A stretch of DNA of 64,000 bases from Sipunculus nudus (Eukaryota; Annelida; Sipuncula; Golfingiida; Sipunculidae). The notes beneath the pieces were generated by a model. It saw only the letters and a list, made by a program, of their open reading frames with translations. It did not search any database and had not been told where the DNA came from. The stretch spans positions 47,286,456 to 47,350,455 of the forward strand of contig CM049318.1 in NCBI GenBank assembly GCA_026874595.1, read 5' to 3'. A program made the translations under genes and the position numbers. Below, piece after piece: positions 6,124 to 56,430 of the stretch (position 1 is its first letter; every line of letters starts with the position of its first letter).

Positions 6124-6168
6124 GATGAGAGGAGTCAGGTTCTCGTGTCCACAGGCATGATTATTGCG
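6124..6168 (+). CDS. Gene A exon (45 nt, LBD loop D region)
   Basis: A 45-nt exon flanked by acceptor tttgaactttcag and donor gtgagt. It encodes DERSQVLVSTGMIIA and aligns with the short exon of nAChR genes, whose protein begins DEKNQ. The length of 45 nt is the characteristic size, and gene B has the same size exon at 42290-42334. The position equivalent to the loop D tryptophan (W55 of alpha7) is methionine (M12). The exon is too short for ordinary ORF detection and was found by its motif and splice sites. It starts and ends in phase 0. Confidence 0.88.
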
Positions 6169-8990
6169 GTGAGTACATCTTTAATTATACCTTTATCGAT
6201 CCTATCTCCATCTTCATGATGCGGGGCTCTCAGATTACATTGGATTCTCAGTAGCATCAGATCCCCCAAGGTACTCGGGCAGCATCATATATTCCTGAGG
6301 CGTATGCTCATAGTGTACAACTCACTGAAATAACCGTATGATTTATGATCCCAGCTATAAATATAAGTCTTACTACACAAGAGTGTCATGGGATACATAT
6401 GCCTGAAGCAAATTAGTAAAAATCTCCCAAAGTTGACATTTTCCTCACGAAGATTGAAGCCAGTGTACCTCTAGGTTCAATTCTAGGGTTTTACGGTACT
6501 TATAACGATAATATAAGGTGAGGCTGTTGCTTAGCTGCGGATGGTTTCAGTATGTCATAGTTCTATTAGTATTTTAACCATTGTCAGTATGTTATAGTTC
6601 TACTAGTATTGCAACCAGTGTCAGTGTGTCATAGTTCTACCAGTACTGTAACCAGTGTCAGTATGTCATAGTTCTACCAGTACTGTAACCAGTGTCAGTA
6701 TGTCATAGTGCTACCAGTATTGTAACCAGTGTCAGTATGTCATAGTGCTACCAGTATTGTAACCAGTGTCAGTATGTCATAGTGCTACCAGTATTGTAAC
6801 CAGTGTTAGTATGTCATAGTGCTACTAGTATTGTAACCAGTGTCAGTATGTCATAGTTCTACCAGTACTATAACCAGTTTCAGTATATCATAGTTCTACC
6901 AGTATTGTAACCAGTGTCAGTATGTCATAGTTCTTCCAGTATTGTTACCAGTGTCAGTATGTCATAGTTCTTCCAGTATTGTAACCAGAGTCAGAATGTC
7001 ATAGTTCTACCAGTATTGTAACCAGTGTCAGTATGTCATAGTTCTTCCAGTATTCTTACCAGTGTCAGTATGTCATAGTTCTACCAGTATTGTAACCAGT
7101 GTCAGTATGTCATAGTTCTACCAGTATTGTAACCAGTGTCAGTATGTCATAGTTCTTCCAGTATTGTAACCAGTGTCAGTATTTCATAGTTCTTCCAGTA
7201 TTGTAACCAATGTCAGTTTGTCATAGTTCTATCAGTATTGTAACCAGTGTCAGTATGTCATAGATCTACCGGTAGGGTTAGCTAATTTTCTTTAAAACGA
7301 TTGTTTGATAAGAGGGATATATGCAGGAATGGTGCACGGCCTTTTTTAATTCAGTTACACCACGACTGCTTAAGAACGCTCAAACAGACGACGGACGACT
7401 GTCGCCCAATGGATATATCCAACAGACGACGGACCGCTGCCGCCCCATGGGTATATCTAACAGACGACGGACGACTGCCGCACCATGGATATATCCAACA
7501 GACGACGGACGACTGCCGCACCATGGATATATCCAACCGACGAAGGAAGACTGCCGCACCATGGATATACCTAACAGACGACGGACGACTGCCGTACTAT
7601 GGATATACCTAACAGACAACGGACGACTGCCGCACCATGCATATATCTAACAGACGACGGACGACTGCCGCACCATGGATATACCTAACAGACGACGGAC
7701 GACTGCCGCACCATGGATATACCTAACAGACGACGGACGACTGCCGCACCATGGATATACCTAACAGACGACGGACGACTGCCGCACCATGGAGATACCT
7801 AACAGACGACGGACGACTGCCGTACTATGGATATACCTAACAGACGACGGACGACTGCCGCACCATGCATATATCTTACAGACGACGGACGACTGCCGCA
7901 CCATGGATATATCCAACAGACGAAGGACGACTGCCGCACCATGGATATATCCAACAGACGAAGGACGACTGCCGCACCATGGATATATCCAACAGACGAC
8001 GGACGACTGCCGCACCATGGATATATCCAACAGACGAAGGACGACTGCCGCACCATGGATATACCTAACAGACGACGGACGACTGCCGTACTATGGATAT
8101 ACCTAACAGACAACGGACGACTGCCGCACCATGCATATATCTAACAGACGACGGACGACTGCCGCACCATGGATATACCTAACAGACGACGGACGACTGC
8201 CGCACGACGCATATATCTTACAGACGACGGACGACTGCCGCACTATGGATATTTATAACAGGTGAGCTGAATACTTTAGCTCCAAAAAAATCACGTTTGT
8301 ATTAATAGCTGTTGTGCATGTTGTTAACGTGCGCTTTGCATAAAAAAATTATCTCATTATCAGGAAAAGTAATGCATGACAGGATAACTTAAACCCGACA
8401 AAACTAACATTAAGCACCTATCTTTACGCTTGATACAATAGACCGTGCATCATACATCCTTAGCAGATTTTAGAGTTTTCTCGCCATGAGACCAGGAGAC
8501 GAATAGTTGGTCCAATTTCCGTTCATTATTATCTATGGAGCAAGGTCTAACAGCGAGCTAGCTATTAACCATTTATAAAAGAAACCCTTGTAAAGATTCT
8601 TCCACTCACGTTGAATTTTGATTCTCTGGCCCCAAAAAAAAAAAACTAAAAGGCGTCATCTTCTGGTCAAGAAAATATACTGAATGGCGTCATGATATCT
8701 TAACCGTAACCTATAAGTCGAATAGCCAAGTAAATGCACGATAATATTAATAAAATGTGATATTTTAAAATATTAATGAAGAGTAGAGTATATGATAAAT
8801 TTGTGATAAAAGTAAAAGGGCTGATATTGTGGTTCAGCATGTATATTACAAGTGATCCGAACTGGTCCGTGCACACAGGACTGTCTTCTTAAAAGTAAAT
8901 GAATTATCTATATACCAAGTCATAATCGTCATACTGGGAAGATTAAGAAGGTAGTCTTTATAAATAGCCAGAGATGTTTTATGTTGAACA

Positions 8991-9043
<53 letters not shown>

Positions 9044-9651
9044 CCACAGAGAGCCCTTTCGCTCATGTTTAAGTTAAATTTTAAGTTATAACACATATGT
9101 GTTAAATGTGTCATTACAAATTCTCTAATGAGCAGCAGCTGAAACACCTAAACATGTCTAAGACGTGTTTAAAACATGTTTACAATTTTACTTTTACTGT
9201 TTGAAGGCGTGATATTTTCCCTTTTCTTTTCTGCTTAATATTTCGTGCCATTTACTTTTAAACTGGCGGTTGAAATAAAGTATAATCAACAGCTGAAAGT
9301 AGAAAGGATCATCTGAGAGCACAGGAACAGTTCAGATGAAGATATGTCGCAAGTCATCTGATGATAATGGTAATAACAAATGGGCGGCAGTTGGGGCATA
9401 AAGGGACATAAAGGCCAGTCAAAACTATAAAGTAATATGATTATTTGACACACGCGCCAGTCACACATGTATATATTTATATATATTTCATAGCTTGCAT
9501 AGCTTTTAAATCTATAGATCGGAGACTGGATATAACATTTCAGATACTCCAATAAGGAAAAACGCTTTCCACAGGATAAAGAAATTTTATAATGGATGAA
9601 AAGTTAGTCTAGTGTAATAGTTATCTTATGACAATTTCAGAAATAATTTTC

Positions 9652-9721
<70 letters not shown>

Positions 9722-12584
9722 ACTGAATAAAGAACCCTTTATCTTAAACAATAAATCCCATTTTTTTAATTCATATTAAAAATTAAGTATATAAAAGTAT
9801 CATATTAAGTATACATTATATTAAATGTGTTTTTTTTACATTTTCTTTCATTTTCATATGATATTTATTTTTTTCTAAAATCATTATGCCAGTTTAAGCA
9901 CCCAGGAACAGCAAGCTACTTTTTAGCAGGCTAATATTAAACTACATGACAATATCTCACAAATATAATTTTTTGTGTCGTTTTTCTTTTATCATGTCTT
10001 CAAGCCGGTATTACAATTTCCAGGAGGTACATAATGAATAGGATCCCTGACTGCAATATTATAATGAACCGTCACAAAATTAGGGGCGGGGGATTATGTG
10101 GTGATCAACTGATGGGAAGGAAAACAGCCGAAGACGATAAACAATAACACAGAGTTTAATCCACAAATTATAGTAGTTTGTTCACCACACACTTGTTGCT
10201 CCACAGCAGTCAATTAAGTCTAGACCAAACGTCCAACGCTCGTCATAATCGCCTTTCAGTCAAGGCCTCGCTTCCGCAATCAACGTCGTGCTTACGTCTT
10301 CCACTGGACGGGCACCTGCTCCCATCAAAGTAGACTGGTAATTACTCACAAACTCCTACCAACCCTATCTCGCTACAAAACCAGTCATATCAGCTTGTGC
10401 GATATTGCAAACTGTTAAAAATTAAGTCTGGTCCATACCTGATGGCAGCCATACCAAATCTGTAAACCATTCCATATTGTAGAATAATTATACCTGACGT
10501 CGTAATTTTCTGTAGGAATTCTCTTCATGTACATCAACTGAAGTAAATGATTAAATTAAAAAAAGTACCTTTATTTCAGAAAAACAATTCCCGCGTTTCC
10601 CAGTATTGAAATATAAAACATGTTCACAGGTAAGCTTTGGGTCGTTGGTTCCGTGATTGATTTATTTTGAATTACAGCTGCTTCTTTTAGAGGGCCGATC
10701 GCGGTACTTATTTCCGTGTGTATATTGGTTACTGTTTACGTTATTATTTTATAAAAGCGCCACTGACACATCAACCGACAAACATGGAAAAGCTTTAAGT
10801 ATGAGGGCTCTGGTGTACACGAGTTTGATGAAACATTTACCGCCTCAACTTAACGGTCCCGTTACAAACATTATTAACCGGTTTAAACGACGACGTGAAG
10901 TCTGTATAATTGTCTCAGCGGAACTCATTACATTAACACACCTTGTAATCAAAACCATGGAATTTTTGCGAAATTACATTGTCAGGAGAAAATTTATTTT
11001 CTTGGATCCAATATGGGATGTGCTGTGCTAAAGCGCGTTTGGTAAATTAGGTAAAATTTATTAGTAATTGGGAAACACCGTCAGAATTAGCGATGTTGTG
11101 CACGGGTGATCATGTCCTAATAACTGTCATGGAGCTCTCAGCTGGGAGCCTGGGTGAGTTTTGAGTGTTCAGAATCATACCTAATACTGGCGTGTAAACT
11201 TGTTTTACACGTCAAAGTAATCTGGAAATCCCTGGATAGATTCAAACCGTTCTGTAGAATTCGTAGAACGCCAGGACGGTGGAGCCTTTCCCAGGACCAT
11301 CAAATGATTATCCTATATAGGCACCTATCCGAGTGAGATTTGTACCAGAACCCGTTTACCGTATTTTATTTTATTCTGGCCTTCGTTTATACAGGCCTTA
11401 CACGTTAAGCCATATATATCATGTCTCCCTTTTTATTGCTATAAAATTCCATTATTTATGTTTCTGAGATACAATAATTGCGTTAGGTTAATTACTGTAA
11501 CCTTTCGATCATTCTATATCTGTGTGTTCAATAATTAGCCCAATTTCCCCCTTTTCCCGAAAAACAAAAGAATTTTCCTGCCGAAATATAGGTTATATTT
11601 TAACATATTACCCCGACCCAGAGTAGCAATAAAATGTGTGATTAACCTCGGCTTGTAGAAGCGTTAATTATTGTCTTTCTGATATTTTAAATGCTTTGAC
11701 CATCCCTAGTACATCGTTTTTCTAATTAATTCTGTATCCTTGACGACGCTAACTCGGGGACGTAAACATATGAACAGATTAAGAATTTGTTTGATGAATA
11801 TAATTCCCATATATAATGTTTGACTGTATCTTTGAGAGATAAGATTATCTTGTCCGAAGTTTAAATGAAGATTTGCCCACTAGCCGTAGATAAAATAAAT
11901 CTAAATACGTACATGTGGCGCCCTTAAGCACATTTGTCATCAGGGAACTTAATTACGTGTCAGCATGGCAGCGGGCTGTCATCGAGGTGGTGAACAGCAG
12001 TGACAGGACCGTGTCACTCAAAATCCTCATTGAAAGTAATGGTGTAGCTATGGTAACTGACGTCTACGGCAACACAGGAGTCTTGAGAATTCTCCATATC
12101 TCGTGTCAGTGGAGCGCCGCTCGCCGCAGTTATTAACGCTCGTGATGGTAATGCGATACACCGCATGGTTTTAATACAAAGAAACATTTCCATTTAACAA
12201 TTTATTGACCGATTAAAGACCTACATACATCACATTGACGGCTCAAAGCCACGGCTACCAGTTTCATCTTCCTGATAGGAATTTAAATACGTCTCAGTAA
12301 GTAAAAAATAAGTAAGTCGAGAAAATAAGAGTAACAGAGAGAAATTACTCAACCCAACTCACCCCGAGGAGTTGTATTAAATTCTACATGTATACATCAT
12401 CCTACACATCCTTTTTTCGGGCCGTAAATCGCTTGTCCTTTAATTAAGTGGATAACAGTTATTGATATCCGACCTGACCACTGTTTCACACTCCTCTACT
12501 TTACACAAAAGGACAAGGAAATCAAAAACATTGTAGAATCGAAACGCAAAGTACAGGGGCGTAGCACACACACATATATATATT

Positions 12585-12615
<31 letters not shown>

Positions 12616-15600
12616 TTGTGTTGATTATTACTACTTTTTATATTTTAGTGTATGAAAATATTTTTTGTTATTTATTTCAATAATGAACCATGTGTCCATT
12701 AAGGTTAATCATAGGTACGTCGGGGAGGGTATGCAAACATTTTTCAGTGTGTAATGTAAAGAGGACCTTTAGAGGCAATTGTCGCAAAAAAATGCGATTT
12801 TCTATTCATCGGCAACTGTTCACTTATGTCTTTGCATAATGTAGTCAGGTTGTAGAGGGGTTCAATATTTATATTTCTTCAAATTTAGGATATAAAATTT
12901 CAAACGTTGTGTGTTGACATGTTTATGTCAATGTCGAAAAGTCGCATCTACGTTTATAAATTTAAAAAATTGTCTTTTAAAATGTAATGCTCGGGATTAA
13001 ATAACTGATATGTTGAAGTCTTATGTTAAACTTTTTATTTTACCGTGGTCTCGACAGCATACAGGACTCAGCAGAGCACAGATCGTGAGTTCGAGTACCT
13101 GTATCAGCAGAGGAGCCGTGAGATTGTTCACGGTCGACCCAAACCAGGGCCTGGCGCTCTGCATCTGTACTGCAGCTGTTTATAACTATCCTCAACGAAT
13201 GAATTAAAAAAACAACACACTGAGGATAACTTAAATAAAATATAATTGCTAATTAATGAAAAAAGAAATATGAAAAATGAAAATTAATCACAAAATTGGG
13301 AAAACTAGATGCACCCGTGGAAAATCCACGGATCTATATGATATATAGTTTTGTAATGAGCTGGTAGTGAATTAATGTAGCATATTTTTATCCTGTGCAG
13401 ATCACTTGTGCTAGGATTCTCCAGGAAACCCCCTCCCCTAAAAATGTCAGCAAAGAATGGCAAATTATACTATTGAAGAGATCAAACAAAGAAGTAGACG
13501 TGAGGCATATATATATAGGGTATACGAGATTTGCGTGAGAATTTTTTTTTCTTCCGATAAACAATATGGGCACGGCACCATCATTGCCGGAGTGATGGCG
13601 AGTGTTTTTATACAAGACATCTTCTCTGTGAAAATAATTTGAAGAAAGAATGTATATAGAAAAGTGAAAGTTAATGAAAGGCCAGTTTTATGGATTGAAG
13701 CGCAAAGGACATCACGAAAAACGATGTTTTTAGTTGATCTTGGGTATGATAACAAACACATATATGTTGTTGAAGGCTCTAACACGCGAAAATGCAGATA
13801 AAAGCTGCCAATGTGGAAAGATCACTCCTAGAGTAATAAATGCTTTTCCTGAGCTTTGTTGATTGTCATCAGGTCGATCTATACTGATGATGCTCCCAGA
13901 TAAGCGACAGATTTACATCTTTCGGTGCAAGTTCGTGGCAAAGAAATACCTTTAGCCTTGATTCTTTGCTTTTTCTTATATTAAGTAAAATTAACGCCAA
14001 AAGGTATATTTGGATTTTTCAGAAGATTTGCAGAGGGTTAGCGTAAAACCGTATAAACAATCCATTAAATTTTGGAGGTAATCAGAATCAACATATTATA
14101 TTTTTATATGCAAAGGTGTTGTAACACAACCCCCCCCCCCCCCCCCCCGCATTGAGTCCTTTCACTTGTGCACTGGGGACAGTTGTTTTATTGCAACTGC
14201 ATAAAATATATTAAATAAAGAAAATATATACAAAGGTACAGAGGGGGTTGTAACTCCCCATAGTTATTAACCCCCCCCCCCCCCCACCGCACCCACTATC
14301 AAGTCCTTCCACCTGTGAACTGGCCACTTTAACAGGCGTATTGTCAAATCTTAGGACGTACAGTGGCTAAAAAAGTGTAGCCTTTAACGATACCTTAACA
14401 GGCGTATTGTCAAGTCTTAAGACAAAGAGGGGCTGAAAATGGTGTATCCTTAAACGATATTTAAACAGGCGTATTCTCAGGTCTTAAGACAAAGAGGGGC
14501 TGAAAAAGGTGTATACCTTTGACGATAGCTTAACAGGCGTAATGTCAGGTCTTAAGGCAAACAGTGGCTGAAAAAGGTGTAGCCTTTGACGATGCCTTAA
14601 TAGGCGTCTTTTCGAGTCCAACGATAGATAAATCCAAACGCATATTGTCAAGTCTAAATGCAAAACGTGGTCGGTTAATAATGGCTGAAAACCATATATT
14701 GTCGAGTCATAACGCAGACTATTCATTAATGATTTATAAGACTTACTTCTACTTCATCAGTCTGCAATTTTTAAGGCTCATTTTTTAAATTCCATTAATA
14801 AAAGTCTTGCGAATTTCATTTATTGTTTAATCTTAAGTGGTATATATATATAATTGTCCTCTGAATATAAAGTCTAGAACCTCACGTGACGCTCTATTAT
14901 TAACCTTACATCATGTTCCGAGCAACGGCGTTTCTCTTATTTTCTTAATAATCCCATGATTAGCTATATCCTTGTCTCCGGTGAGAAAGACTACTTCGTA
15001 ATTTCGGAACTATTTGCCTTGGATGTGATTGAAACGATGTATGTAGCCACGCAAGTCTTTCGTTACTAAGCTTTTTTTATTATTTCATATTAAGAATAAA
15101 TAAAAATTTAAAATCTAAAATATTAAAAAGAAATTGAGCGGATATAAAATGTCATTCTACAGTAGTTGAGGCATGGAATGACACCAGCAGTTTATCACGG
15201 AGGGGGAAATGTAAACGCCCGGAACCGGTGTACACAATACATTGATCACATCCTTTAGCATGCATGCTAGGCCTTTTAAAAGGAAAGGTCACCTTGCCCA
15301 ATTCTCCATTTGATTTCCTACGCTGCCGTAGGTGTTTCCTTTTCATCTTATACAATGAATACATTTTTTTAATCTTTCATATAAAACTACAGGTTCACCG
15401 TGGCCTGTCAGGTTAGAGAGAAATATATTGTCTTTGAAAACTTTATCTGAAATGCCTAAGTCATGTTTAGAAGATATCTGCTTCACAAAAACATCCATTC
15501 TCAAACCACTATCAAGATTTTGGTGACAGCACTGAATAACCAATACACATCAGAGGCTGAGAACCAGGGTAAACGACAAATTCTTGATAAAGGAGGACAT

Positions 15601-17765
15601 GGCGTGTTTGATCTCAGATATATAGATGAGATATTAAAGGCGTCTAGTTCTTTACAAGTATTTTTTAAAGTAGAAATACCAGAGTGGCACGTCTGATGTT
15701 GAACTAAGCCACCCACCTAAAAACGTTTTTAAATCGGTGGAGTTCTGAAATACCCCCTGTTAGGGCTTGGCCATGCAGTTCTAAGGAACAAATTATTGTT
15801 GTGAACCTTGATTGAATGAACAGACGCCTAGATAATCCAAGGCACACAGGTTTATTTCAGATCGAGTATATGATCATGAGCTTCATAAAATACCTATTTT
15901 GAATTCCTACACAGTATTTCAGGGACACCTAAATATCCCCACCAGTGTAATAAATGGTTTGTTTGTTTGGTGGAAAGATTTTGGTAAAATTCAAGGGTTA
16001 GAGAAGAACCCAATGTTGTTTAGGTAATTTATGTTAATCTTTTATGTTTTTACTTTTACTATTGTGAGATTGGGCTATTTGTCTCTTCCGCCACACAGCC
16101 CTGGTCATCCACTCTTGTTGAGCCGCCTTTGTTCTGCTACCTTTGATACAATGAAACACACGTTTGGCCAGGAGCCGGGCGGAGGTATATCGATATAATT
16201 TATGCAGTCTCTGACTACAGTTCTGTTACCGGAATTTTTGTTCTTTAAATTAAGTATAGATTTGTAAGAAAGACTCTGCACACACTATTGTTAAGTGTAG
16301 ATGACTCTGCATGGTATAGATTTTATGACATCAGATAATGTTCACATTTAATCTATTTCAAGCTGAAATGGTTAACAGTTTCCCTCATTGATATTTGTTA
16401 ACGTGTTAACATATGTATATACTCCACAGGACTGGTACGATGAGAGACTGGTGTGGCATCCAAGAAACTACGGCGGCATCACCGACATTGTGGTCAAGTC
16501 GGAGCGCCTCTGGCAGCCTGAGCTAGCCATCATTAACGGGTGAGTTATTGTAAGGTAATCATTTCGCTGGCTCTCGGTACGTTTATTATAGTCACCAGCA
16601 TATGGCTGGCGACTCCTTATAGAATATGCCCCCTGTCAGTCACATGTTCGAATATAAGGTAAACCTGTTCTTATTAACGAAGATCCGTGGAAACTCACAC
16701 TCTCAGCTCACAGCGTTTTTTCTTGTTACATAATTTCGATATGTCATATAGATCCATCATATATCTCCTAACTTGAACATCCTGTTATAAAGCTGTGTTT
16801 CCATGTATCCGCAAATATCGTATCCGCAAAAGACGAACGTACGCTCCATAGTGCGCACTCCGCAAAAAACTGTTTCCATAAGTACGTACGTTTTGTTTGC
16901 GAATACCCCTCGCATGCCTTTTGTGAAACAGCCATTCTCCACACGTGCACGTGCATGGATTTTATTTTAAATGCATCCAGTGACCTGGCACCGGGGCACT
17001 CTTGGGAAATGTAGGCATTTTTGCCATCGCAAAACGGATGAATCGCTCAGCGATCCGTTTCGATGCGGTCCGTTTTTGCGGATACGCATGCGGAGCACGT
17101 TAAACCGTACACATGGAAACGGTTCATCTAAAGCTGTGTTTCCATTCATCCGTAAATCTCGTACGTCTCGTACGCAAAAAATCGGATCCCTCTTTTTAAG
17201 ATAAACTATTTCCATGTATACGTTTTAACGTGCTCCGCAAACGTATCCGCAAAAACGGACAGCATCGAAACGGATTGGTGAGCGATACATCCGTTTTACG
17301 GATGGCAAAAATGCCTACATTTCCCAACAGTGCCCCGGCGCCAGGTGTGATGAGACATATTGACCTTCTTCCTGCCTGTCGTCCTTGCAGTTTCAAAAGA
17401 GGCACGTGAAAGGGTATCTGCAAGACAAACGTACGTACTTATGGAAACAATTTTTGCGGAGTGCACTATGGAACGTACGTACGTCTTTTGCGGATACGTT
17501 TTTAACGGATACATGGAAACGCAGCTTTAAAAAGACTGATGTGATTTTTTTTTGCGTACGAGACGTACGAGATTTACGGATACATGGAAACACAGCTTAA
17601 GCTTATGTTCATAAATACGGGCAAAGTGAGGTTTTGGTTTGTCACATTTTATTACCCCACTACTGACCCAGGAAAACTTAAGATTATTAGTCTGACATAT
17701 TTTAAGTTCTGTCGACATACGAATAAGGGTTTGAGGAAAGAGCCCATTAAAAAGGTAATTATATA

Positions 17766-17813
<48 letters not shown>

Positions 17814-19504
17814 TATCATGACAGGTGGATTGACTTCATTGTCTGATTTCCGTTATATCTTGTACACAACAAAAACAAGCGATGTAATCAGGTCGGACAT
17901 CTTATGTCAATATGTCAATAAACTATTCATAGTTGTCGTAATTCGTCCGTTTCTCAGATAAAATTTTGGAAGCTCTGACCAACGTTCATCACTGAAGACT
18001 CGAACTAAAGGAAAATAACTTGCCGCTAGTGAAACAAAACTATATTTTTTCTTCTTTTTTTTTTGTTTTATTTAAAGGGCAGACGAAATGATACCAGAAT
18101 TTGAGAAAATTCGTGCACGGGTGATGTACAACGGAAGCGTACACTGGGAGCCTGGCGGGGTTTTCAGCACTACGTGTGACATAGACATTGCGTTCTTTCC
18201 TTTTGACCGACAGGCCTGTCCCATTCACATCGGCGCCTGGTCCTATACAAGTGCCCGGATGAACCTGACCAACGTGACGTCGTCAATGGAGATGCAGCAG
18301 TTCACCGTCAACGGGGAATGGGAAGTGACGTCAACAAATGCTGAGTGGCAGGAGATCATACTTCAGTGTTGCAGAGATATAAGTTACTCCAAGGTTGTGT
18401 TCACTGTTTACATGAAACGACGTTCGGCCTTTTATATTGTTAATATAATTTTGCCTTGTTGTCTATTATCTGTGCTGATATTGGTGGTATTCTGTGTTCC
18501 GCCGGACGCTGGCGAGAAACTTTCTGCAGGAATTTCTGTTCTTCTGGCATTCACTGTATTTCTACTTATGCTAGCGGACGCTGTTCCCAGAACATCCCTT
18601 GACACGCCAATATTAGGTAGGTAGTATCACTTTTATTTGATCTGATGACGCTTTATTTATTTTAATATATAATACAAAAATTAAATTTCAGGAGAAATAC
18701 TGAACGCTTCATTAATTTTTGCATTGTGCGTAAAGCTACGTTTCCATAAGAAGGTGAACGCAAATATGAGTCGCGAGCAGTTCGCGGGGTGTGTTTCCAT
18801 GTAAGCGACGGGGCACGCGATTTCTAGTCTTTTCTGCACAATTACAATACAGAAATTTAGATTTGATTTGGTGAATTTTAGGTATGTCGAGTCTAGATAT
18901 ATCTGAAAATAAGGTATATGTCGCTCGACGTATTAAAAATTACTTTCCCTCTACGTCTTGCATTTCCATTGTCACACATTGCTAATAATTTTAACGTCAG
19001 TTGTGATAGAGAGAGGTGGCATCGCATAAACAATTTTGATGCCTTTCATATAAATGTTCTACCAGTCTACACATCACCATCATTGAACATCGTCTGTGTC
19101 TTGAGCATGCTGGCTTTGCTTCATGCACGTGCTGTAAACAGATGTCAAGGATGCCCTCCGCCTCCCTTCATGACGTAAATTTAAGGAATTCCCACGCGAA
19201 TGCCGCGCTACACGGCGCGATTCAGAAAATCTCGTTCGCTCTCGCTCTCGCGCTCGCTGATGCGCATATGGAAACGCTCTAATATATTTATCATAGAAGT
19301 TATTTAATGGAGCTCGCGTTCGCTCTCGTGTTCGCGCTCATGGAAATGCAGCTTGTTCTTACAAAAAGCCAGTTGTCACAGCTAGCCTGTCATGTGCATA
19401 ATGACATGAAGTGATAATGGACACCTTTGCCAGTGGCGTCAATTTATGTAAGAAGGGGGGGGGGGATCAAACTTTTCGTTACATTCACATATTATATGTA
19501 TATA

Positions 19505-19545
<41 letters not shown>

Positions 19546-21900
19546 ACCTGATATTGTCTGTGTGATACTTTTCAAATATATAAGGTAGTATATTAAACCT
19601 AAGTATAAGGGTTTAAAGAATAAAGTATTATGTTTCAAGTATAGGTTTTTTCTAAACCTGATTTAGATATATAAGATTTAATAGGAAACTAAGAAATGGA
19701 AAGTCTAAAAAATTAAGTATATAATTCTTATTGTTAATAGATTTTTTTTCCAATATATAAACTTTATTCTCTTGGGGGGATGATTACATTGACCATTCCC
19801 CTTGCTAAAATCATGGGTTGGGGGGGGGGGGAGGGGGATATATACCCTCCATACCCCCTGTATTGACGCTGCCATGGCAAGAGCTGACCTTTCCGAACAC
19901 TATTATATAATTAATCCAGAAGTGACCGACAAGTTACCCTTGAGATTACACTATGGTATACCTTTTTTCTGATTTGTAGTATATTTTGCTCAGAGCACAC
20001 GTGTATATCTATTTATTCAGTCACTTCACACTGAAGACAGGCATTTTGCCGAACTTGAAAACACGACCTTTGAACTCTGGATAGTATGAATACTTTAGTT
20101 TTCTCCAAACATCTCTGAAAACTTTACTTCCCTTTCTTCATTTTTGTTTCGTTATTTGCGAATGCTATTTTATTTTAAACGGGCAACACAAAAAAATGCT
20201 TGGTTTGTCTTAAAATATGAGTGGGGCTGACCCTCATCTCGGTCGTGTTTTCGAATTTCTAGATCCGCCCCTGAAACGTTTTAATGCAAAACGTAACCAA
20301 TTTGACCCGATAACCTGTCAAAATGTCACAATGCTGCCTTGACTTTCTAGTATTATGTGGCAATATACATGTCGGCCGGGCAAAAATCAGCCCCAGCTTA
20401 GCTCTATATGTCAAACGAAAGACAACCGCAACAACATAAAAGACAACTAAAAAATGTGATCATTCTCACAGCAAATGAACTTTTAGTTTTGTATACGCCC
20501 ACGTGGGAATGATATATTAGTTAAATGCTACTTTAACTCTTGAAATAAACTATTAATTCAACGTTTTTTTTTTAAGAGACGGTAGATAAAACAGTTATAT
20601 TGTACATTTTCTGAAAAAAAATCTGGTATGAAACTAAGACGCTACTTAGTTTCTGTTTCTCTGTTTATGTGTTCTCTGTGTATGACATTTATTTGTTTAT
20701 AACGTTAATGTGTTCTCTGTGTATGACATTTATTTGTTTGTAACGTTTATGTGTTCTCTGTGTATGACATTTATTTGTTTATTACGTTTATGTGTTCTCT
20801 GTGTATGACATTTATTTGTTAATTACGTTTATGTGTTCTCTGTGTATGACATTTATTTGTTTATTACGTTTATGTGTTCTCTGTGTTTGTTTATAACGTT
20901 TATTTGTTTTCTGTGTATGACTTTTGTTTGTTTATTACGTTTATGTGTTCCCTGTGTATGGCATTTATCTGTTTGTAACGTTTATGTGTTCTCTGTGTAT
21001 GACATTTCTTTGTTTATAACGTTTATGTGTTCTCTGTGTATGACATTTCTTTGTTTATTAAGTTTATGTGTTCTCTGTGTATGACATTTCTTTGTTTATA
21101 ACGTTTATGTGTTCTCTGTGTATGACATTTCTTCGTTTAAAACGTTTATGTTTTCCCGGTGTATGACATTTCTTCGTTTATAACGTTTAGGTGTTCTCTG
21201 TGTATGACATTTTATTGTTTATAACGTTTAGGTGTTCTCTGTGTATAACATTTTTGAGGAATATGTTTCAGTGTTCTCTGTGATATGACATTCTTTGGGT
21301 TATATGTTTCAGTGTTCTTTGTGTATGACATTTTTTGGGTTTTATGTTTCAGTGATGTACCTGAGCGTGACTATGATATCAGGAACAGTGTCTGTCTGCC
21401 TGACGGTCATAGTTCTTAATATCCACCATAGAGGGAGTCACCGTCCAGTACCGCGATGTATTCACGCCATCTTTTTTCAATGTCTTGGACGTTGTCTTGG
21501 AATAACGCATACAAACACGAAGCTGCGCCGCCTTGGGAGTACCAAACGGCAGAGAAACAGCGACTACATGCTGAACGATCCCGAGCAAACCGGGTCCATC
21601 GAAATACAAAGTATTATCCCTGGTGACAGTAACAATCATGTCCACAACACCTTCACTCTCAAAGAAAGGATGCCCATCGGTTACGGACGCAGGGAGCGGC
21701 ATCATTCCGTTACCGAGCGCTGTACCCGGGAGACAATGCTGGAACAACAAATGGAGGAAAACGGTAAAGACTGGAGACTGCTCGCCCGCATCATGGACAG
21801 AGTATTCTTCATCCTCGTCACCATGACAATGGTTTTATCAGCTGTGTTGATTTTATCAAGTCCGTATTATACAGACCCAGGCCAAAAGAAAACTAAATGA
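6124..21900 (+). CDS. Gene A: nicotinic-receptor-like Cys-loop channel subunit (5' exons missing)
   Basis: Four exons (6124-6168, 16430-16539, 18078-18616, 21353-21900) join in frame to 1242 nt, the last 413 residues of a Cys-loop receptor subunit. Seen in order: a 45-nt exon of the type found in nAChR genes, extracellular beta strands, a Cys-loop (C85-C99 of the partial protein), vicinal cysteines C149-C150, M1 (about 169-190), M2 (200-219), M3 (233-255), a cytoplasmic loop and M4 (383-401). Splice sites are GT-AG with consistent phases (0, 2, 1). Known of the family: such subunits form pentameric cation channels in the plasma membrane. The GEK motif before M2 supports cation selectivity. 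The ligand is uncertain because several binding-site aromatics are absent. The signal peptide and N-terminal exons are not visible upstream and probably lie outside the window. Gene B is a convergent paralogue. Confidence 0.9.
6540..7272. repeat. 37-bp minisatellite in gene A intron
   Basis: About 19-20 units with core GTCAGTATGTCATAGTTCTA and CCAGTATTGTAACCAGT, starting about 370 bp after the 45-nt exon. Most differences between units are single substitutions. Confidence 0.95.
7376..8262. repeat. 38-bp minisatellite in gene A intron
   Basis: About 23 units with core AACAGACGACGGACGACTGC and CGCACCATGGATATA. The period is not a multiple of three, so the reading frame cycles, giving apparent ORFs (DGRLPHHGYI, NRRRTTAAPW) in every frame on both strands; none is a gene. 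The array is distinctly GC-richer than its surroundings. Confidence 0.95.
8995..9041. repeat. (TA)n microsatellite
   Basis: About 23 TA units. Confidence 0.97.
9655..9717. repeat. (TA)n microsatellite
   Basis: About 31 TA units, the longest pure tract in the window. Confidence 0.97.
12568..12618. repeat. Compound palindromic CA/TA/TG microsatellite
   Basis: (CA)n followed by (TA)n and (TG)n, so the tract is nearly self-complementary and could extrude as a hairpin. Confidence 0.93.
13041..13210 (+). mobile_element. Possible tRNA-derived SINE
   Basis: Contains a box B-like GAGTTCGAGTACC at about 13087 preceded by a weak box A-like GTGGTCTCGACAGC, then an unrelated body and an A-rich end. No clear target duplication seen. 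Confidence 0.35.
14130..14285. repeat. Two poly-C tracts
   Basis: C runs at 14130-14148 and 14271-14285, about 120 bp apart, each preceded by similar AAC-ending sequence and followed by GC-rich bases and AGTCCTTYCAC; they look like a local duplication. Confidence 0.85.
14329..14720. repeat. 66-67-bp tandem repeat
   Basis: About six diverged units beginning TTAACAGGCGTATTGTCA and containing GTCTTAAGACAAAGAGGGGC and a GTGTAGCCTTTAACGAT part. Unit starts near 14331, 14397, 14465, 14532 and 14598. Lies in the gene A intron. Confidence 0.88.
15152..15716. other. Unassigned open frames, possible TE remnant
   Basis: Overlapping 60-77-residue frames exist on both strands. The minus-strand frame 15343-15543 (KQISSKHDLGISDKVFKDN) and the plus-strand frame 15463-15696 look protein-like in composition, but neither matches a family I can name and no splice sites support them. 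Confidence 0.25.
16430..16539 (+). CDS. Gene A exon (110 nt, LBD loop A region)
   Basis: A 110-nt exon between acceptor atatactccacag and donor gtgagt. It encodes the conserved block DWYDERLVWHPRNYGG followed by LWQPELAIING, equivalent to the nAChR loop A region (WxPD...LYN). The usual loop A tyrosine just before Asn is isoleucine here (I50). It starts in phase 0 and ends with two bases of a glycine codon completed by the next exon. Its length is identical to the gene B exon 39588-39697. Confidence 0.92.
16789..17598. mobile_element. Large foldback (MITE-like) element in gene A intron
   Basis: The left part from 16789 (AAAGCTGTGTTTCCATGTAT) reads as the reverse complement of the right part ending at 17528 (ATGGAAACGCAGCTTT). 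Inner segments about 16971-17125 and 17206-17355 also pair, so nearly the whole unit is one hairpin. A second terminus pair (about 17130-17196 with 17534-17598) shows a nested copy. No transposase is encoded; mobilisation in trans by a DNA transposase is inferred. Confidence 0.85.
17759..17811. repeat. (TA)n microsatellite
   Basis: About 20 TA units in the gene A intron before the 539-nt exon. Confidence 0.95.
18078..18616 (+). CDS. Gene A exon (539 nt, Cys-loop to M2)
   Basis: The main exon, from acceptor tttatttaaag to donor gtaggt. It opens with ADEMIPEFEKIR, then the Cys-loop CDIDIAFFPFDRQAC (13 residues between cysteines), the loop B tryptophan in GAWSY, possible N-glycosylation sites (YNGS, NLT, NVT), the vicinal pair in ILQCCRDISY, M1, and M2 preceded by GEK with leucine at 9' and aspartate at 20'. 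The residue two before the Cys pair, normally Tyr, is Leu. Gene B carries exactly the same coding length split by an intron (228 + 311 nt). The exon ends in phase 1, matching the last exon. Confidence 0.95.
18731..19358. mobile_element. Second foldback/MITE-like element in gene A
   Basis: The left end AAAGCTACGTTTCCATAAG and right end CTCATGGAAATGCAGCTT are inverted matches, and subterminal CG-rich parts (GAGTCGCGAGC versus GCTCGCGTTCGCTC) also relate. The ends resemble those of the 16789-17598 element although the interior differs. No coding capacity. Confidence 0.72.
19430..19880. repeat. Dispersed repeat with poly-G and (TA)n
   Basis: GGCGTCAATTTAT, then a G run at 19456-19467, (TA)n at 19509-19542, then AT-rich sequence with TTCTAAACCTGATTTAGATA. 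The same order (GGCGTCAATTTAT, G run, dinucleotide tract, CAGGTTTAGATATA) is found at about 33373-33625, so both are copies of one dispersed element. Confidence 0.65.
20647..21352. repeat. 41-bp minisatellite ending at the gene A last-exon acceptor
   Basis: About 17 units with core GTTTATGTGTTCTCTGTGTA and TGACATTTATTTGTTTATTAC. Later units change to TTTATGTTTCAGTGTTCTCT, and the last one supplies the splice acceptor TTTATGTTTCAG of the terminal exon. Confidence 0.9.
21353..21900 (+). CDS. Gene A terminal exon (M3, cytoplasmic loop, M4, stop)
   Basis: Begins after ttttatgtttcag; the first two bases complete a phase-1 codon, giving VMYLSVTMISGTVSVCL (M3). A polar intracellular loop of about 120 residues follows, then an amphipathic stretch (KDWRLLARIMDRVFF) leading into M4 and a short tail ending in TGA at 21898-21900. 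The open frame continues upstream into the intron only because the preceding tandem repeat happens to be open. The acceptor is placed by phase and by alignment with gene B (VAYLTATMFLGAISVCL). Confidence 0.92.
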
Positions 21901-36030: not shown

Positions 36031-36539
36031 TCAACTGGTCATGATTTTGCCTGTATAGAACGGATAAACCAATATTAAGACACCTGCCATGCTCATCATC
36101 AGAAATATCACCCAGAAGAAGCACCTGTCCGTGACGTAAGCGAGTTCCTGCCAGTCACGTGCATAGTCCGGGCCCTCATCCCCTTCGTCATCCATGCCCT
36201 GTCCTTGCGCATGCTTAGTTGTGATGTTTTCAACTTCCGCTTTGGCGTTGACAGTTAACTTGACCAGTTCCATGTCTTCAACATTGCCATTAGTCTCTGT
36301 GCTTGTGACCGTCTTTTTCTTGGTTCTCTGCGTGGATTTGACGTAAACTTTCCGCGTTACTGAGCGCACATTAGATGCACGTGTTTTGACACACACTAAT
36401 CTGCATAGGTAACAAAGGACAAGAGAATGCAAAAGGCGAGGAACCGGTCGATCTGGGCAGCGATGATGCACATTCATGACCAACACAGTCAGACATACCG
36501 ATATGGCTCCCAGAAACATGGTAGCTGTCAGGTAGGCAA
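36031..36539 (-). CDS. Gene B exon 8 (M3, cytoplasmic loop, M4, stop)
   Basis: The acceptor tttattccag gives VAYLTATMFLGAISVCL for M3, aligning with gene A residue by residue. A nearer AG (cctgacag) also preserves phase but would delete the start of M3. The cytoplasmic loop is about 105 residues with a basic stretch (STQRTKKKTV) and an acidic stretch (DDEGDEG), then DWQELAYVTDRCFFW into M4 and a short tail. The stop TGA is at 36031-36033. Confidence 0.92.
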
Positions 36540-39500
36540 CTGGAATAAATTAAATATAATTTTAAATGTAGCTTACATTTTTAGATTTTTTAATAAAGAC
36601 TTGACGTTTCAATCAAACTGTAAGTCCCCTAAGGGTTCTAAATCCATATTATGTGCCAAGGTTTTTTTATATCCATATTATGTGACAAGGTTTCTATATC
36701 CATATTGCGTGGCAAGGTTTCTATATCTATATTATGTGACCAGGTTTATATATCCATATTATGTGACCAGGTTTCTATATCAATATTATGTGACAAGGTT
36801 TCTATATCCATATTGCGTGGCAATGTTTCTATATCTATATTATGTGACCAGGTTTATATCTCCATATTATGTGACCAGGTTTCTATATCAATATTATGTG
36901 ACAAGGTTTTCAATTGCGATCAAGCTTACTAGTGTGAATATATTGCTTTTAAGATTTGCAAATATAAGTTGTAAACTTAGTTTTTTTTAATAAACTTGAG
37001 CGACACGTCATGGTGCACAAGGCCAGGCGTCAGCTATAGATCGCTCCTTATAAACAGAGATAATAAAACAAGTATGTACACATGTGTTCATTCCTCGTCT
37101 AGGCGCTTATGAAAGCAACACTTATGGCTGGAAAGACATTGACTTACCCATGAGCGGGACAGACAGCGATGTCCGGGGTATTATGTCAGCGACCATCAGT
37201 AAGAACACAGTAAAAGCAAGCAGAACAGAAATTCCCAATGACACCTTCTCTCCGGCCTCGGGAGGAAGATAGAACCCAATCAGGATCAGCATGGACAGCA
37301 TGACGCAGGGCAGGATAATGTTCATGATGTAGAAGGTGTGACGTCGAGACAGGAACAGAGTGAACACCACGTGGGAGTACGCATGCCCAGGGCAGCATTC
37401 TAATATCGTTTCGTTCCGGACTGCTGTTGTCTTGTAAACGTGCCATTCTCCGTTAAGTCTGTAGATAAAAGCAGATTTTGATAGCATAACATTAAATATA
37501 TATTTTATTTTGTTACCCAACTGATACATTTATCAATGAGTGTATTAAACCTTCGTCTATTACGATTAAACCTTCAGCCTCCTCCAAAGCCTTTTTCATC
37601 TATAGAAACTATAGGCTTGCACCAATTATATATATAAAATAGGTCTATGCATTTACAGAAGCAACTTTGAAAGATTTATCAGAAGAAACATGTAGAGAAC
37701 AGACAGCTAGTTGCAAAGTACACACAGAAATATAATTCGAATTAATGTGATTAAAACGACGTAAATAGTCACTTAATCTGAAAAGAAAGATATTAAATAA
37801 CCGTAAGAGTCCTGAAAGACGATATGTATTAGATAATGAATGTTAAATAGTACCTTTTAGTAATAAAAAGTAACTCCGGCAAACAAAATAATCAATATAA
37901 ACACTGAAAATACAGGCACCTCAAAGAATTACTCCACAAATTAAAATTTTGATTTAATGACTATATAATGACTCGCTTGTTCACTCGGTCGTCATATTGA
38001 TCATGTCTATAACATGCAAGTATAGTCGTGCATTTTATGTTGACCTTCTTTTTGCGAGCTAAACCTGTATTTTCCGAACAGTAACGGCTATCAGGGCACG
38101 GACCTACTGATCATTTGATTTGTATACATTTGAAAGCTGTAAAGGGACCTTCTGTGTTGGGGAACATCTTGAATTTATTCTCAGCTTCAATTTATTATTT
38201 TGTTTTCACCAAATATCATGAACATTTTTTTCATCTTATTTGGTTAGTCTTATTGTATTAACTGAAAAAATTACTTTTTTAATTAGTTTTTGTTCTCGAA
38301 TAAACTTCCAGTTGTGCGGTTCTATATGTTCTATATTTTATAAATGGGTTCTTTCATGTTGGTGGACATATTTTTGGAGAAATAGGGCAGATCCTAGAAC
38401 TTTGGGTTGATTCATCTTTATGTTAAAAATGACTTGGGCCCTGGAATTAAATTGCCGCGAATCGCCCAAGGTCAGAGGGTAATGTTTACCCAGCATATAT
38501 AATATATATAATGTGATATGTATATACGGATTCCTTATACGTCTATTCTATTTACATATCTGTGTGCTTCTGTAAATTGAACATAACCTAACCTCTTGTT
38601 TTTTTAAATCTAAATACAGAGATGTGTGGTTATAAAATGATAAAATTCTATTGATTGGCTCATTGAGGAAATCCTGATTCCACCGTGGCGTTTTCGTTTT
38701 CGGTACCCCTTTGTATTTTACGTCGGTTAAAAAATACGGTAAGTAATTTTCACATGAAAAAAATCCAATTCATTTCAATGTGAATTTGTTCATGAGATTT
38801 AGGCTGTACGAAAAACAAAACATATCATATGAAGTAATGTTGAAAAAAGTTATGTTTGCCGCCTGGAGACTTGATGTTATAATATTTCAGACAAATCTCG
38901 ATAAAAATTACGGAAACCATGTTTCCTAGAAAGGTGTGCAGAAGAGGGGCCGGTTTTTGTATCCCGGTCAGCCTGTCAGGTGTGTGCAGCCTACCTGAAG
39001 TCATGAGTGCTAATAGAGTCACTGAGACTGGTAATATTCATTTTTTTGCTGTGATAGCTCCACGCGCCAATCAGTAGGCTGCATTGCTGGCTGTCGAACG
39101 GGAAGAACGTGATGTCGATATCACACGTGGTCCGGAAGATCCCGCCCGGCTCCCAATGTAGACGGCCGGTGTGATGCAGCAATACTCTGATCTTCTCAAA
39201 CTCTGGTATCATCTCGTCAGCTCTGTGAGGTCAAATCATATGTCAAAATCACCAAAGGGTACATGTTTCAGTAATCATTTGAGTTTTTAAAAATGTCATC
39301 ATGATGAATTTACAGAGTACCATGTCAAAACTTTATAAAGCATTTTAAAGCCATATTAGATTTACTACAACAATTCATATGCATCGGACTTATACCATTT
39401 TATTATTTAACAGCTTCTTTTTCTTATTATTATTTTAATTGCTACTACTACAATTTCCAATGTTCACATTACCGTATATAATTATTTTGTTGAAATAAAA

Positions 39501-42393
39501 ATGTATAAAATAAATGTATCAATCCAAACTAATTTAGTAATAGGACAGACTAACTTCAGCTAAGATCAAGTTAGATAAGTGGTTCACCCATTCATGACGG
39601 CGAGTTCCGGTCGCCAGACCTTGTCGGCACGCAGTATAAGATCTGTGAGGTTGCCGTAATCTCGCGGGTCCCAGCGCAGTCGCTCGTCTCCCCACTCCTG
39701 GTAACAAATTAGCTGATTAAGATTCATTCTAAACAACCCTCCGATGATAATCCAGATAACATGACCAATCGGCCATGAAGACAACCATGCCTTTCCCATC
39801 ATGCGTTCCCAAATACCCTACTTAAAGTAACACAATGCTAACATGACAACCTAACTATGCTCACATGAACACCTCATAAACCCTTTTACACTGCTAACAA
39901 GACCACCTTATAAACCTGTTCACACTGCTAACAAGATCACCTTATAAACCTGTTCACACTGCTAACAAGATCACCTAATAAACCTGTTCACACTGCTAAC
40001 AAGATTACCTTATAAACCCGCTCACACTGCTAACAGGATCACCTTATAAACCCTCTCACACTACTAACAGGATCACCTCATAAACCTTCTACACTGCTAA
40101 CAGGACCACCTCATTAACCCTCTCATAGTATTAACAAGACCAACTCATAATCCTGTCTTACTGCTAGGGGACCACCTTAAAAACCTTTTAACACTGCTTA
40201 CAGGACCACCTCATAACCTTTTCACTATGCTCACATGAATACCGTATAAGCCCTAAACTAACAGGATTGTCCCATAAACCTCGCACTGCTAACAGGACCA
40301 CCTCCTAAACTGTTCACACTACCAACAAGACCATCTTATAAACCCTTGCATACTGCTAACAGGACCACCTCATAAATCCTCTCACTAAACTCACATGACC
40401 ACCTCATAAACCCCTCACACTGCTAACAGAATCACCGCACAAATCCTCTCATACTGCGAATTTGATCACCTCATGAAACCTCTTACACTGCAAAGAGGAT
40501 CACCTCAAAAACCATCTAACATTGCAAACAGGTTCACCTCATAAAACCTCTCACACTGCTAAAAGGACCACCAAGTAAATGATGCTTTTTGTATACCTAG
40601 AAACTCAGAAGACCAGATGAGTGAGCCAAAAAGGTTTAGTGCAACTTTCATTAATCTATGTTTTTACGGGGAAATACATTTTCTTAATGATCGTTTTGAA
40701 CAGTATAAAACCGATCAATATACCTGTATCTCAAATAATGGTGCTTGTGTCATAGATTATGCAAATGAACCAAGTAAATTGTATTCACTTGTCACCTCAT
40801 TTGAGATTGTGGCGCCAGATTACTCTGACCATTGTCCGTTGACTTGTACATTTACAACACGACAAAGGAGAACACTCCTCCTGCCTGGAGCCCACCATCC
40901 ACCACAGCATGCACGTGTTCGTTATGTTTGGAAAGTAGAACGACAACCGCACTATGTTAGTAATTTACAAACTATTTCGAACATTTTGTTGAAATATTGG
41001 ATTTAAATGAAGAAACCGCAATAGAACTTTTTTGAAAAAAATACTAATTGATTTAGCTAATATCAAGAATAAAAGGGGAAAACAAGCCGACAAATGGGAT
41101 GTAACCATTATGTTTGGATAGAGAGTGTGCTATTGCTTAAAGGCACAAGCATTGTATGTTGAATAAATACAGGCGCACTAACTCTGAAATTGATCGTTTT
41201 ATTGATTGTTTTATTGATGAACATACCCCGATTATATGGGAAGTAATAATGTATAGGTGTGTATTATTTACATGTATATGATTCTGTAAGGGCTGGTGGT
41301 CCTGTCGTTATCAGTATAAACTTTTCTTCTTTCTTTCTTTCCTTCTTTCTTAGTTAACGTAAAGCGAAAAAATGCTAAAGGGACCTTTATCTGACTTTGA
41401 TTAAAAATAAATACTAGTAATCCCTTAAACCTTTTATAAAATTATTTGACAAAAATAGCTGATACCACGATGTACAGGTTTTTCCTTTTGTTTATATCCA
41501 CGTGTTTAGAACACTTGAGGTCACGGCTTCTAACATGGACATCTGGCGGTATTTTAGATAGTTGATGTCAATATAAATCAACCAGCTTCGGTTACATGGT
41601 TTTTCTGTGTGTCGTCATGGGCTCGTATACCTTGTGTACTAATAGCCTGTAGACAAAAAGTTCCTACATCTGTCACAGGGGCGTTATAGGAACCTTTCTG
41701 AGCAGGGATTACACTTGGTTCCATAATACATACGCAGAGTAAACCGGAAAACTCATCGGTTCTTTAAATAAGACATTAAGGTTAATAGTTGCTTTAAGAC
41801 CAATATAGAGCCGTTTGCATTAACAAAATAATAAGGAACCATGAGCAAGATTATATAAATCTTTTATTTATTGATTTATATCATTTATTATTGACTAGGG
41901 GTTGACTAAACTAATCTGAGCTATCGGCATGGACTCGGTTCTTCGGTTGTCCGTTCGTTAACAGGAAAGGGAAGAAATCTAAACCATTATACATTCAAAA
42001 ATTTGAGAATTCAGGAAATTCTATAAGCAATTTTCATACAAACTATTAAAGGTTAACTATTGTTGTGTCTCATAAACGACAAACCATGTCAGTGTTACCT
42101 GTAATTATGTGTTATGAGTTAAAGACGTGTGTCGGCTTCACCTTGACGTTATGGCATACGGGCTTGTTATGATAAACTTGGATTTACACAAAAACACAAA
42201 ACAGACAATTTTACTTTTCAGAGCTTCCTATTATAAGTTAAACACCGGGTAACAACAGACTGTACACGTCCTCACCATCTGTGCCTTACCGTCATTATGA
42301 GTCCTGTTGTCGTAAAAACCATACTTCTCTCCTCCTGAAGTTAAAATAAAGTATTATGGTCAAAGTGTACCATCTCCTAAAAAGTATGCATTC

Positions 42394-55706: not shown

Positions 55707-56430
55707 ATGAAGTTTATCATGACTGGTCTAAACAGGTTGTACAAGAGAAGAATGGGATCAAAGTTTATCAAGACTGGTCTAAACAGATTGTACAAGAGAA
55801 GTATGGGATCAAAGTTTATCATGACTGGTCTAAACAGGTTGTACAAGAGAAGAATGGGATCAAAGTTTATCATGACTGGTCTAAACAGGTTGTACAAGAG
55901 AAGAATGGGATCAAAGTTTATCATGACTGGTCTAAACAGGTTGTACAAGAGAAGAATGGGATCAAAGTTTATCATGACTGGTCTAAACAGGTTGTACAAG
56001 AAAAGAATGGGATCAAAGTTTATCATAACTGGTCTAAACAGGTTGTACAAGAGAAGAATGGGACCAAAGTTTATCAAGACTGGTCTAAACAGGTTGTACA
56101 AGAAAAGAATGGGATCAAAGTTTATCATGACTGGTCTAAACAGGTTGTACAAGAGAAGAATGGGATCAAAGTTTGTCATGACTGGTCTAAACAGGTTGTA
56201 CAAGAGAAGAATGGGATCAAAGTTTATCATGACTGGTCTAAACAGGTTGTACAAGAAAAGAATGGGATCAAAGTTTATCATGACTGGTCTAAACAGGTTG
56301 TACAAGAGAAGAATGGGATAAAAGTTTATCATGACTGGTCTAAACAGGTTGTACAAGAAAAGAATGGGATCAAAGTTTATCATAACTGGTCTAAACAGGT
56401 TGTACAAGAGAAGAATGGGATCAAAGTCAA
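55707..56430. repeat. 51-bp minisatellite
   Basis: About 14 highly similar units of AAGTTTATCATGACTGGTCT, AAACAGGTTGTACAAGAGAA and GAATGGGATCA. Both strands stay open for over 200 codons in 17-residue steps (for example NLFRPVMINFDPILLLY). Regular unit identity and lack of any non-repeat protein context argue for a non-coding array. Confidence 0.95.

Follow-up and report, generated by a model that had tools for sequence, protein, structure and literature searches.

A nicotinic-type receptor gene of Sipunculus nudus shares a remodelled acetylcholine pocket and intact vicinal cysteines with a clade of paralogues

Vertebrate alpha-5, a subunit of nicotinic acetylcholine receptors (nAChRs), keeps the vicinal cysteine pair in loop C. 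Although it is called alpha, it is described as not capable of taking part in the orthosteric site (PMC7744819). In the oyster C. gigas, 132 nAChRs have been reported, comprising 33 alpha subunits with the cysteine pair, and the principal site is whole in 13 of these 33 and not in the other 20 (Jiao et al., 2019, PMC6896357). Cephalopod chemotactile receptors are described as pentameric cation channels that derive from nAChRs and respond to hydrophobic molecules rather than to acetylcholine (PMC11526382, PMC10338036). Alpo4 of Alvinella pompejana is an orphan lophotrochozoan nAChR-like receptor that keeps the key aromatics and is without the vicinal disulfide; according to its published description no acetylcholine response was seen (PMC10338036), and therefore an aromatic box alone does not make a receptor cholinergic. 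In C. elegans, the non-standard subunit EAT-2 is reported to be without the cysteines, to keep most of the box, and to respond to acetylcholine together with EAT-18 (PMC7173930). Here we describe gene A, a nicotinic-type receptor gene in a 64,000-nucleotide stretch of the Sipunculus nudus genome (GenBank assembly GCA_026874595.1, contig CM049318.1, positions 47,286,456 to 47,350,455 of the forward strand; the whole stretch is hereafter called the window). Its acetylcholine pocket is remodelled around an intact cysteine pair, in a manner that is largely shared by a clade of eight paralogues.

By published description, gene A resembles the oyster alpha nAChRs in that the cysteine pair is kept, the principal site is not whole and the family is very large; the combination of kept cysteines and an incomplete principal site is already known from the oyster (PMC6896357). 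On the same descriptive basis it can be likened to alpha-5 (PMC7744819). Alpha-5, for its part, acts within alpha4beta2 and alpha3beta4 receptors. Compared by description with the cephalopod chemotactile receptors, gene A retains the cysteine pair and the Trp of loop B. By contrast, Alpo4 (PMC10338036) and EAT-2 (PMC7173930), the latter a non-standard subunit like gene A, are its mirror images, as they have kept the key aromatics, or in EAT-2 most of the box, and are without the cysteines that gene A has kept. No description of the signature of this clade was found in the open-licence literature searched, which is weak evidence of absence.

Gene A is a member of the Cys-loop receptor superfamily, containing PF02931 (Neur_chan_LBD, 3.9e-39) and PF02932 (Neur_chan_memb, 1.1e-39), and its closest solved structures are the nAChR alpha-6 (human, 1.5e-43), alpha-3 and alpha-4 chains. 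Residues are numbered here in a partial protein of 231 residues obtained by splicing exons 3, 4 and 5/6 (Table 1). The Cys-loop (C85-C99, with 13 residues between) and the loop A WxP motif (W43-Q-P45) are of the nAChR type, and the vicinal cysteines C149-C150 in loop C are those of an alpha subunit. The loop C motif is IILQCC in gene A and TILECC in gene B, a second receptor gene of the window. On the principal acetylcholine face, the loop A tyrosine (TyrA), loop B tryptophan (TrpB), and first and second loop C tyrosines (TyrC1 and TyrC2) correspond in gene A to Ile, Trp, Leu and a Tyr that comes one residue late. On the complementary face, the loop D Trp is replaced by Met in gene A and by Leu in gene B. 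Three of the five key pocket aromatics are gone from gene A. A profile of genes A and B aligned with human alpha-6, the structural reference used here, placed the loop D Met/Leu on Trp and the loop A Ile/Met on Tyr; in loop C, the Leu of gene A falls on the first Tyr of alpha-6, and Tyr155 reaches the second Tyr only past a one-residue gap. The first-pass annotation, which used alpha-7 numbering, had listed M12, I50, W106, L147, C149, C150 and Y155, and the spliced exons and structure alignments agree with each of these. Its list of five box residues needs amendment, in that they do not lie on a single face and loop D belongs to the complementary one.

The loss of the loop D aromatic says little alone, because alpha isoforms of nAChRs that contribute principal faces alone are described as having a non-aromatic side chain there (PMC4006026). 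According to the same source, the hydroxyl groups of TyrA and TyrC1 matter for quaternary ammonium agonists, as does the TyrC2 ring, and the quaternary ammonium is sandwiched by TrpB and TyrC2 (PMC4006026). Gene A is without both hydroxyls and retains the sandwich pair. Because the hydroxyls are gone, an ordinary affinity for acetylcholine is unlikely.

A search of the organism's own genome (1.43 Gb, 153 contigs) with the ligand-binding domain gave at least 152 matches (the best 150 of 417 candidates were scored), and the exon protein of gene A gave at least 119 matches at 1e-6 (the best 150 of 160 candidates were scored). One hundred fetched loci together with genes A and B formed a survey of 102 rows, which leaves out some listed matches (e.g., C7:50676362). 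Two rows (L089 and L096) stop before loop C, the pairs L041/L087, L064/L065 and L107/L108 are identical, and some rows in our judgement resemble other Cys-loop branches. For the tree, 78 of 105 rows were used, 27 being dropped as short, duplicate or from other branches; L101, L028, L055, L036 and L090 were flagged as long branches. Genes A and B form a core with L029 (support 100/99), and these three together with L030-L034 comprise a clade of eight (99/85). Support for A and B as the closest pair is only 90/58, and their overall identity is 49%.

The remodelling of the pocket extends through this clade. Gene B repeats the losses of gene A, with Leu in loop D, Met in loop A and LECC in loop C, and it likewise retains TrpB and a Tyr five residues after the cysteine pair (CC+5). 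In exon 4, for which a reading was obtained from every member, the loop A residue is Ile (A and L030-L034) or Met (B and L029) throughout. Loop C is one residue longer in all eight, with an aromatic at CC+5 in all eight. A loop D exon was found for four of the eight genes, and it encodes Met (A and L033) or Leu (B and L032) in every case. The changed loop A and the shifted loop C characterise the clade, as the altered loop D probably does. The loop B Trp and the cysteine pair are retained in all eight members, and the first loop C position (C1) is aromatic in six. The losses that the first-pass annotation had assigned to a single gene are thus mostly a feature of eight; among the rows read that have the cysteine pair, the Leu in loop C is confined to A and B.

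Across the survey, the typical residues predominate. The vicinal cysteine pair is present in 53 of the 102 rows (the identical L041 and L087 both being counted); two positions before it (C-2), 47 of these rows have Tyr, three have Phe (L029, L032 and L033), two have Leu (A and B) and one has Ile (L072). Loop A exons were paired with the closest gene on their own strand, which gave a reading for 30 of the 45 cysteine-pair rows outside the clade: Tyr in 23, Phe in one and other residues in six. Loop D exons were picked by eye from scored candidates: 10 of the 18 non-clade loci scanned gave an exon, the rest giving no convincing one, and seven of these 10 exons encode an aromatic residue. Two of the four clade loci scanned gave an exon, both of which had been found before and were among the scoring references.

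The NG86 method for dN/dS returned no synonymous value, which we read as saturation, and differences by codon position were used in its place. At positions 1, 2 and 3, the differences are 30, 17 and 69% between A and L029, 31, 20 and 65% between B and L029, and 34, 20 and 63% between A and B. Third positions are near saturation and second positions are held, and therefore purifying selection on the protein is indicated. The remodelled pocket is an inherited and constrained trait of the paralogues.

The first-pass annotation had named aromatic residues from neighbouring positions as possible substitutes that would fill the box. In genes A and B, the stretch from the loop A WxP through NGADE holds no aromatic residue. 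Counting back from Leu147 in loop C of gene A, the first aromatic is Trp142, at a distance of five residues. It is present in L029 and absent from B, and would point the other way if the strand is regular. In L031-L034, a Phe lies two residues after the Pro of loop A, a position that by our own counting differs from PheA of the inhibitory receptors as described (PMC4006026). At the level of sequence, loops A and C appear to offer no obvious replacement.

The M2 segment of gene A carries the GEK motif (DAGEKLSAGISVLLAFTVFLL). Glu at position -1' of M2 is the rule for a cation-selective channel, and the gene A channel is probably cation-selective; B, L029 and L030 also retain GEK. In all four of L031-L034 (C4:49.57 Mb; C17:43.41, 40.32 and 50.65 Mb), on the other hand, the M1-M2 linker is two residues shorter, GEK has become GQK or AQK, and an Arg stands in mid M2 (LLSFRIF or LLSFRLF). 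This change falls in the -1' ring, and therefore the ion selectivity of L031-L034 may differ. Two further loci border on the clade. Its sister row, L036 (C10:10967553-10968056), has Tyr-Lys-Tyr-Tyr for Tyr-x-Cys-Cys, both cysteines being replaced by tyrosines. A ninth clade-like gene on C6 (L138, L117 and L135) has an exon 2 at C6:34305926-34306045 and an exon 4 at C6:34311178-34311282, with EFAVING in loop A; no exon 5 was found in the next 2 kb, as would fit a long intron or a fragment, and this gene is excluded from every clade count.

There is good support for gene A being something other than an ordinary acetylcholine alpha subunit. The first-pass annotation had proposed a non-acetylcholine ligand or a regulatory subunit, and its departure from the ordinary alpha type stands, as the losses are real, shared by paralogues and under purifying selection; both of its alternatives fit the data. 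We regard the chances as evenly balanced that gene A encodes a functional, nicotinic-type pentameric channel subunit of the rebuilt-pocket clade with a ligand other than acetylcholine. Gene A belongs to an expanded receptor family of the mollusc type and, within it, to a group of eight or more paralogues, in whose common ancestor the loop A Tyr would have become Ile or Met, loop C would have gained one residue, and the loop D Trp would probably have become Met or Leu. A and B additionally have Leu at the first loop C Tyr position. TrpB, the vicinal cysteines and an aromatic at the TyrC2 position are retained throughout, and the site in gene A may still bind a ligand, one that is not acetylcholine, and gate via the closure of loop C. 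With Ile/Met, Leu and Met as its lining and a single Trp and a single Tyr remaining, such a pocket would suit a larger or more hydrophobic molecule. Another ligand is favoured because the kept residues are the working parts of the site and are conserved, and because cephalopods are described as having nAChR-derived receptors for hydrophobic molecules (PMC11526382). It is possible, and we put it forward only tentatively, that all eight genes encode ligand sensors of nicotinic origin that have an aliphatic pocket, keep TrpB and the cysteines, and close loop C on a non-acetylcholine, probably hydrophobic ligand.

Several observations weigh against this reading. No changed pocket feature is unique to the eight-gene clade: six of the 30 other cysteine-pair rows are without Tyr or Phe at loop A, three of the 10 other exons are without an aromatic at loop D, and the longer loop C also occurs in L023, L098, L053, L054 and L060. 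In a heteromer, a neighbouring subunit could supply the loop D aromatic, and the kept TrpB and TyrC2, being the ammonium sandwich pair as described in PMC4006026, could allow weak binding of acetylcholine. Furthermore, vertebrate alpha-5 is described as a subunit that does not form an orthosteric site (PMC7744819), and this precedent also speaks for what appears to be the main rival, namely that gene A acts as an accessory (regulatory) subunit that would join true alpha subunits, line the pore and tune the receptor, its own interface being ligand-free. In agreement with such a role, the losses hit both faces, affecting loop A and C1 on the principal side and loop D on the complementary side. 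Nevertheless, all eight members retain TrpB, both cysteines and an aromatic at C2, and six retain the C1 aromatic, which exceeds the constraint of a dead site, and the sister row L036 shows that the cysteine pair can be lost. We see the accessory role as less likely than another ligand, yet as a fair possibility for gene A.

A low-affinity acetylcholine receptor, for which TrpB, TyrC2 and the cysteine pair would suffice if a partner gave an aromatic loop D, is unlikely. The ammonium sandwich of TrpB and TyrC2 and the non-aromatic loop D of principal-only alpha isoforms (PMC4006026) are compatible with it, as is EAT-2, whose non-standard site is reported to respond to acetylcholine; however, EAT-2 is the opposite case, without cysteines and with most of the box kept (PMC7173930), and the residues whose hydroxyls are described as important for agonist recognition, TyrA and TyrC1 (PMC4006026), are Ile and Leu in gene A. 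It is very improbable that gene A is decaying, or that exons of two genes have been joined, so that its odd residues would reflect relaxed selection or misassembly. Although exons 1 and 2 were not found in the window, with an exon 2 candidate lying 78 kb upstream, and a 10 kb intron bearing minisatellites separates exons 3 and 4, the frames are open, the borders are AG/GT and the codon positions are biased. Moreover, gene B has matching exons of 45 and 110 bp with the same losses, and the candidate for exon 2 has the same kind of GC donor as its counterpart in gene B.

Exons of 45 and 110 bp, as found in both genes, are of the sizes typical of nAChR exons 3 and 4. All three spliced exons of gene A are bounded by AG/GT. 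The span 6124 to 18616 proposed in the first-pass annotation holds for these exons and not for the end of the gene, which extends through a further exon to a stop at 21900; from exon 3 to this stop, the protein has 413 residues. No exon 1 or 2 was found within the window. A genome search with exon 2 of gene B identified a stretch of 53% identity (L136, C13:47214322-47214444) that lies on the strand of gene A, upstream of its exon 3, and this is probably exon 2 of gene A; if so, the intron that follows it is ~78 kb. The splice donor is GC in this candidate as in exon 2 of gene B, and GT in L137-L139. Gene B, on the minus strand, has an open frame of 451 residues from exon 2 to its stop (42781-36031).

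Table 1. Exons of genes A and B, with positions counted from the first nucleotide of the window
Feature	Position	Strand	Details
Gene A exon 3, loop D	6124..6168	+	45 bp; AG/GT borders, phase 0; Met12 codon 6157-6159 where Trp expected; human alpha-6 Trp aligned
Gene A exon 4, loop A	16430..16539	+	110 bp; Ile50 codon 16532-16534 where Tyr expected; WQP motif retained
Gene A exon 5/6	18078..18616	+	Loop E, Cys-loop, loop B, loop C, M1, M2, start of M3; codons of Trp106 18238-18240, Leu147 18361-18363, Cys149-150 18367-18372, Tyr155 18385-18387
Gene A last exon	21353..21900	+	M3, long cytoplasmic loop, M4, stop; AG border, frame runs on from 18616; PF02932 1.1e-39
Gene B exon 2	42627..42781	-	GC donor
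Gene B exon 3, loop D	42290..42334	-	45 bp; Leu where Trp expected
Gene B exon 4, loop A	39588..39697	-	110 bp; Met where Tyr expected
Gene B exon 5	38995..39222	-	Cys-loop; loop B Trp retained
Gene B exon 6	37148..37458	-	Loop C ILECCPGHAY (Leu, cysteine pair, Tyr one late); M1, M2
Gene B last exon	36031..36539	-	M3-M4, stop

Long minisatellites with units of 36-51 bp occupy positions 897-1961, 6547-7274, 7383-8261, 46236-47314 and 55710-56427 of the window, the second and third of which sit inside the intron that follows exon 3 of gene A. Scanning the window for Rfam families and tRNAs gave no matches. Elsewhere in the genome, three adjacent and apparently intronless receptor genes (L009, L010 and L012, C2:44.10-44.12 Mb) have uninterrupted frames of 467 to 499 residues and are the top matches to gene A among 20 loci compared (206, 189 and 187 bits); they are without the cysteine pair and have GFRN in loop A. 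Intronless nAChRs have been reported in molluscs and, according to the same account, not in six other named species (Jiao et al., 2019, PMC6896357).

If the clade does bind another ligand, its pocket would have been rebuilt by keeping the cysteine pair and TrpB and dropping the tyrosines, the reverse of what is seen in Alpo4 and EAT-2. The eight genes would then lend themselves to the question of what in the box renders a receptor cholinergic. They would also be candidates for sensory receptors, in an animal group whose families of orphan nAChRs are very large.
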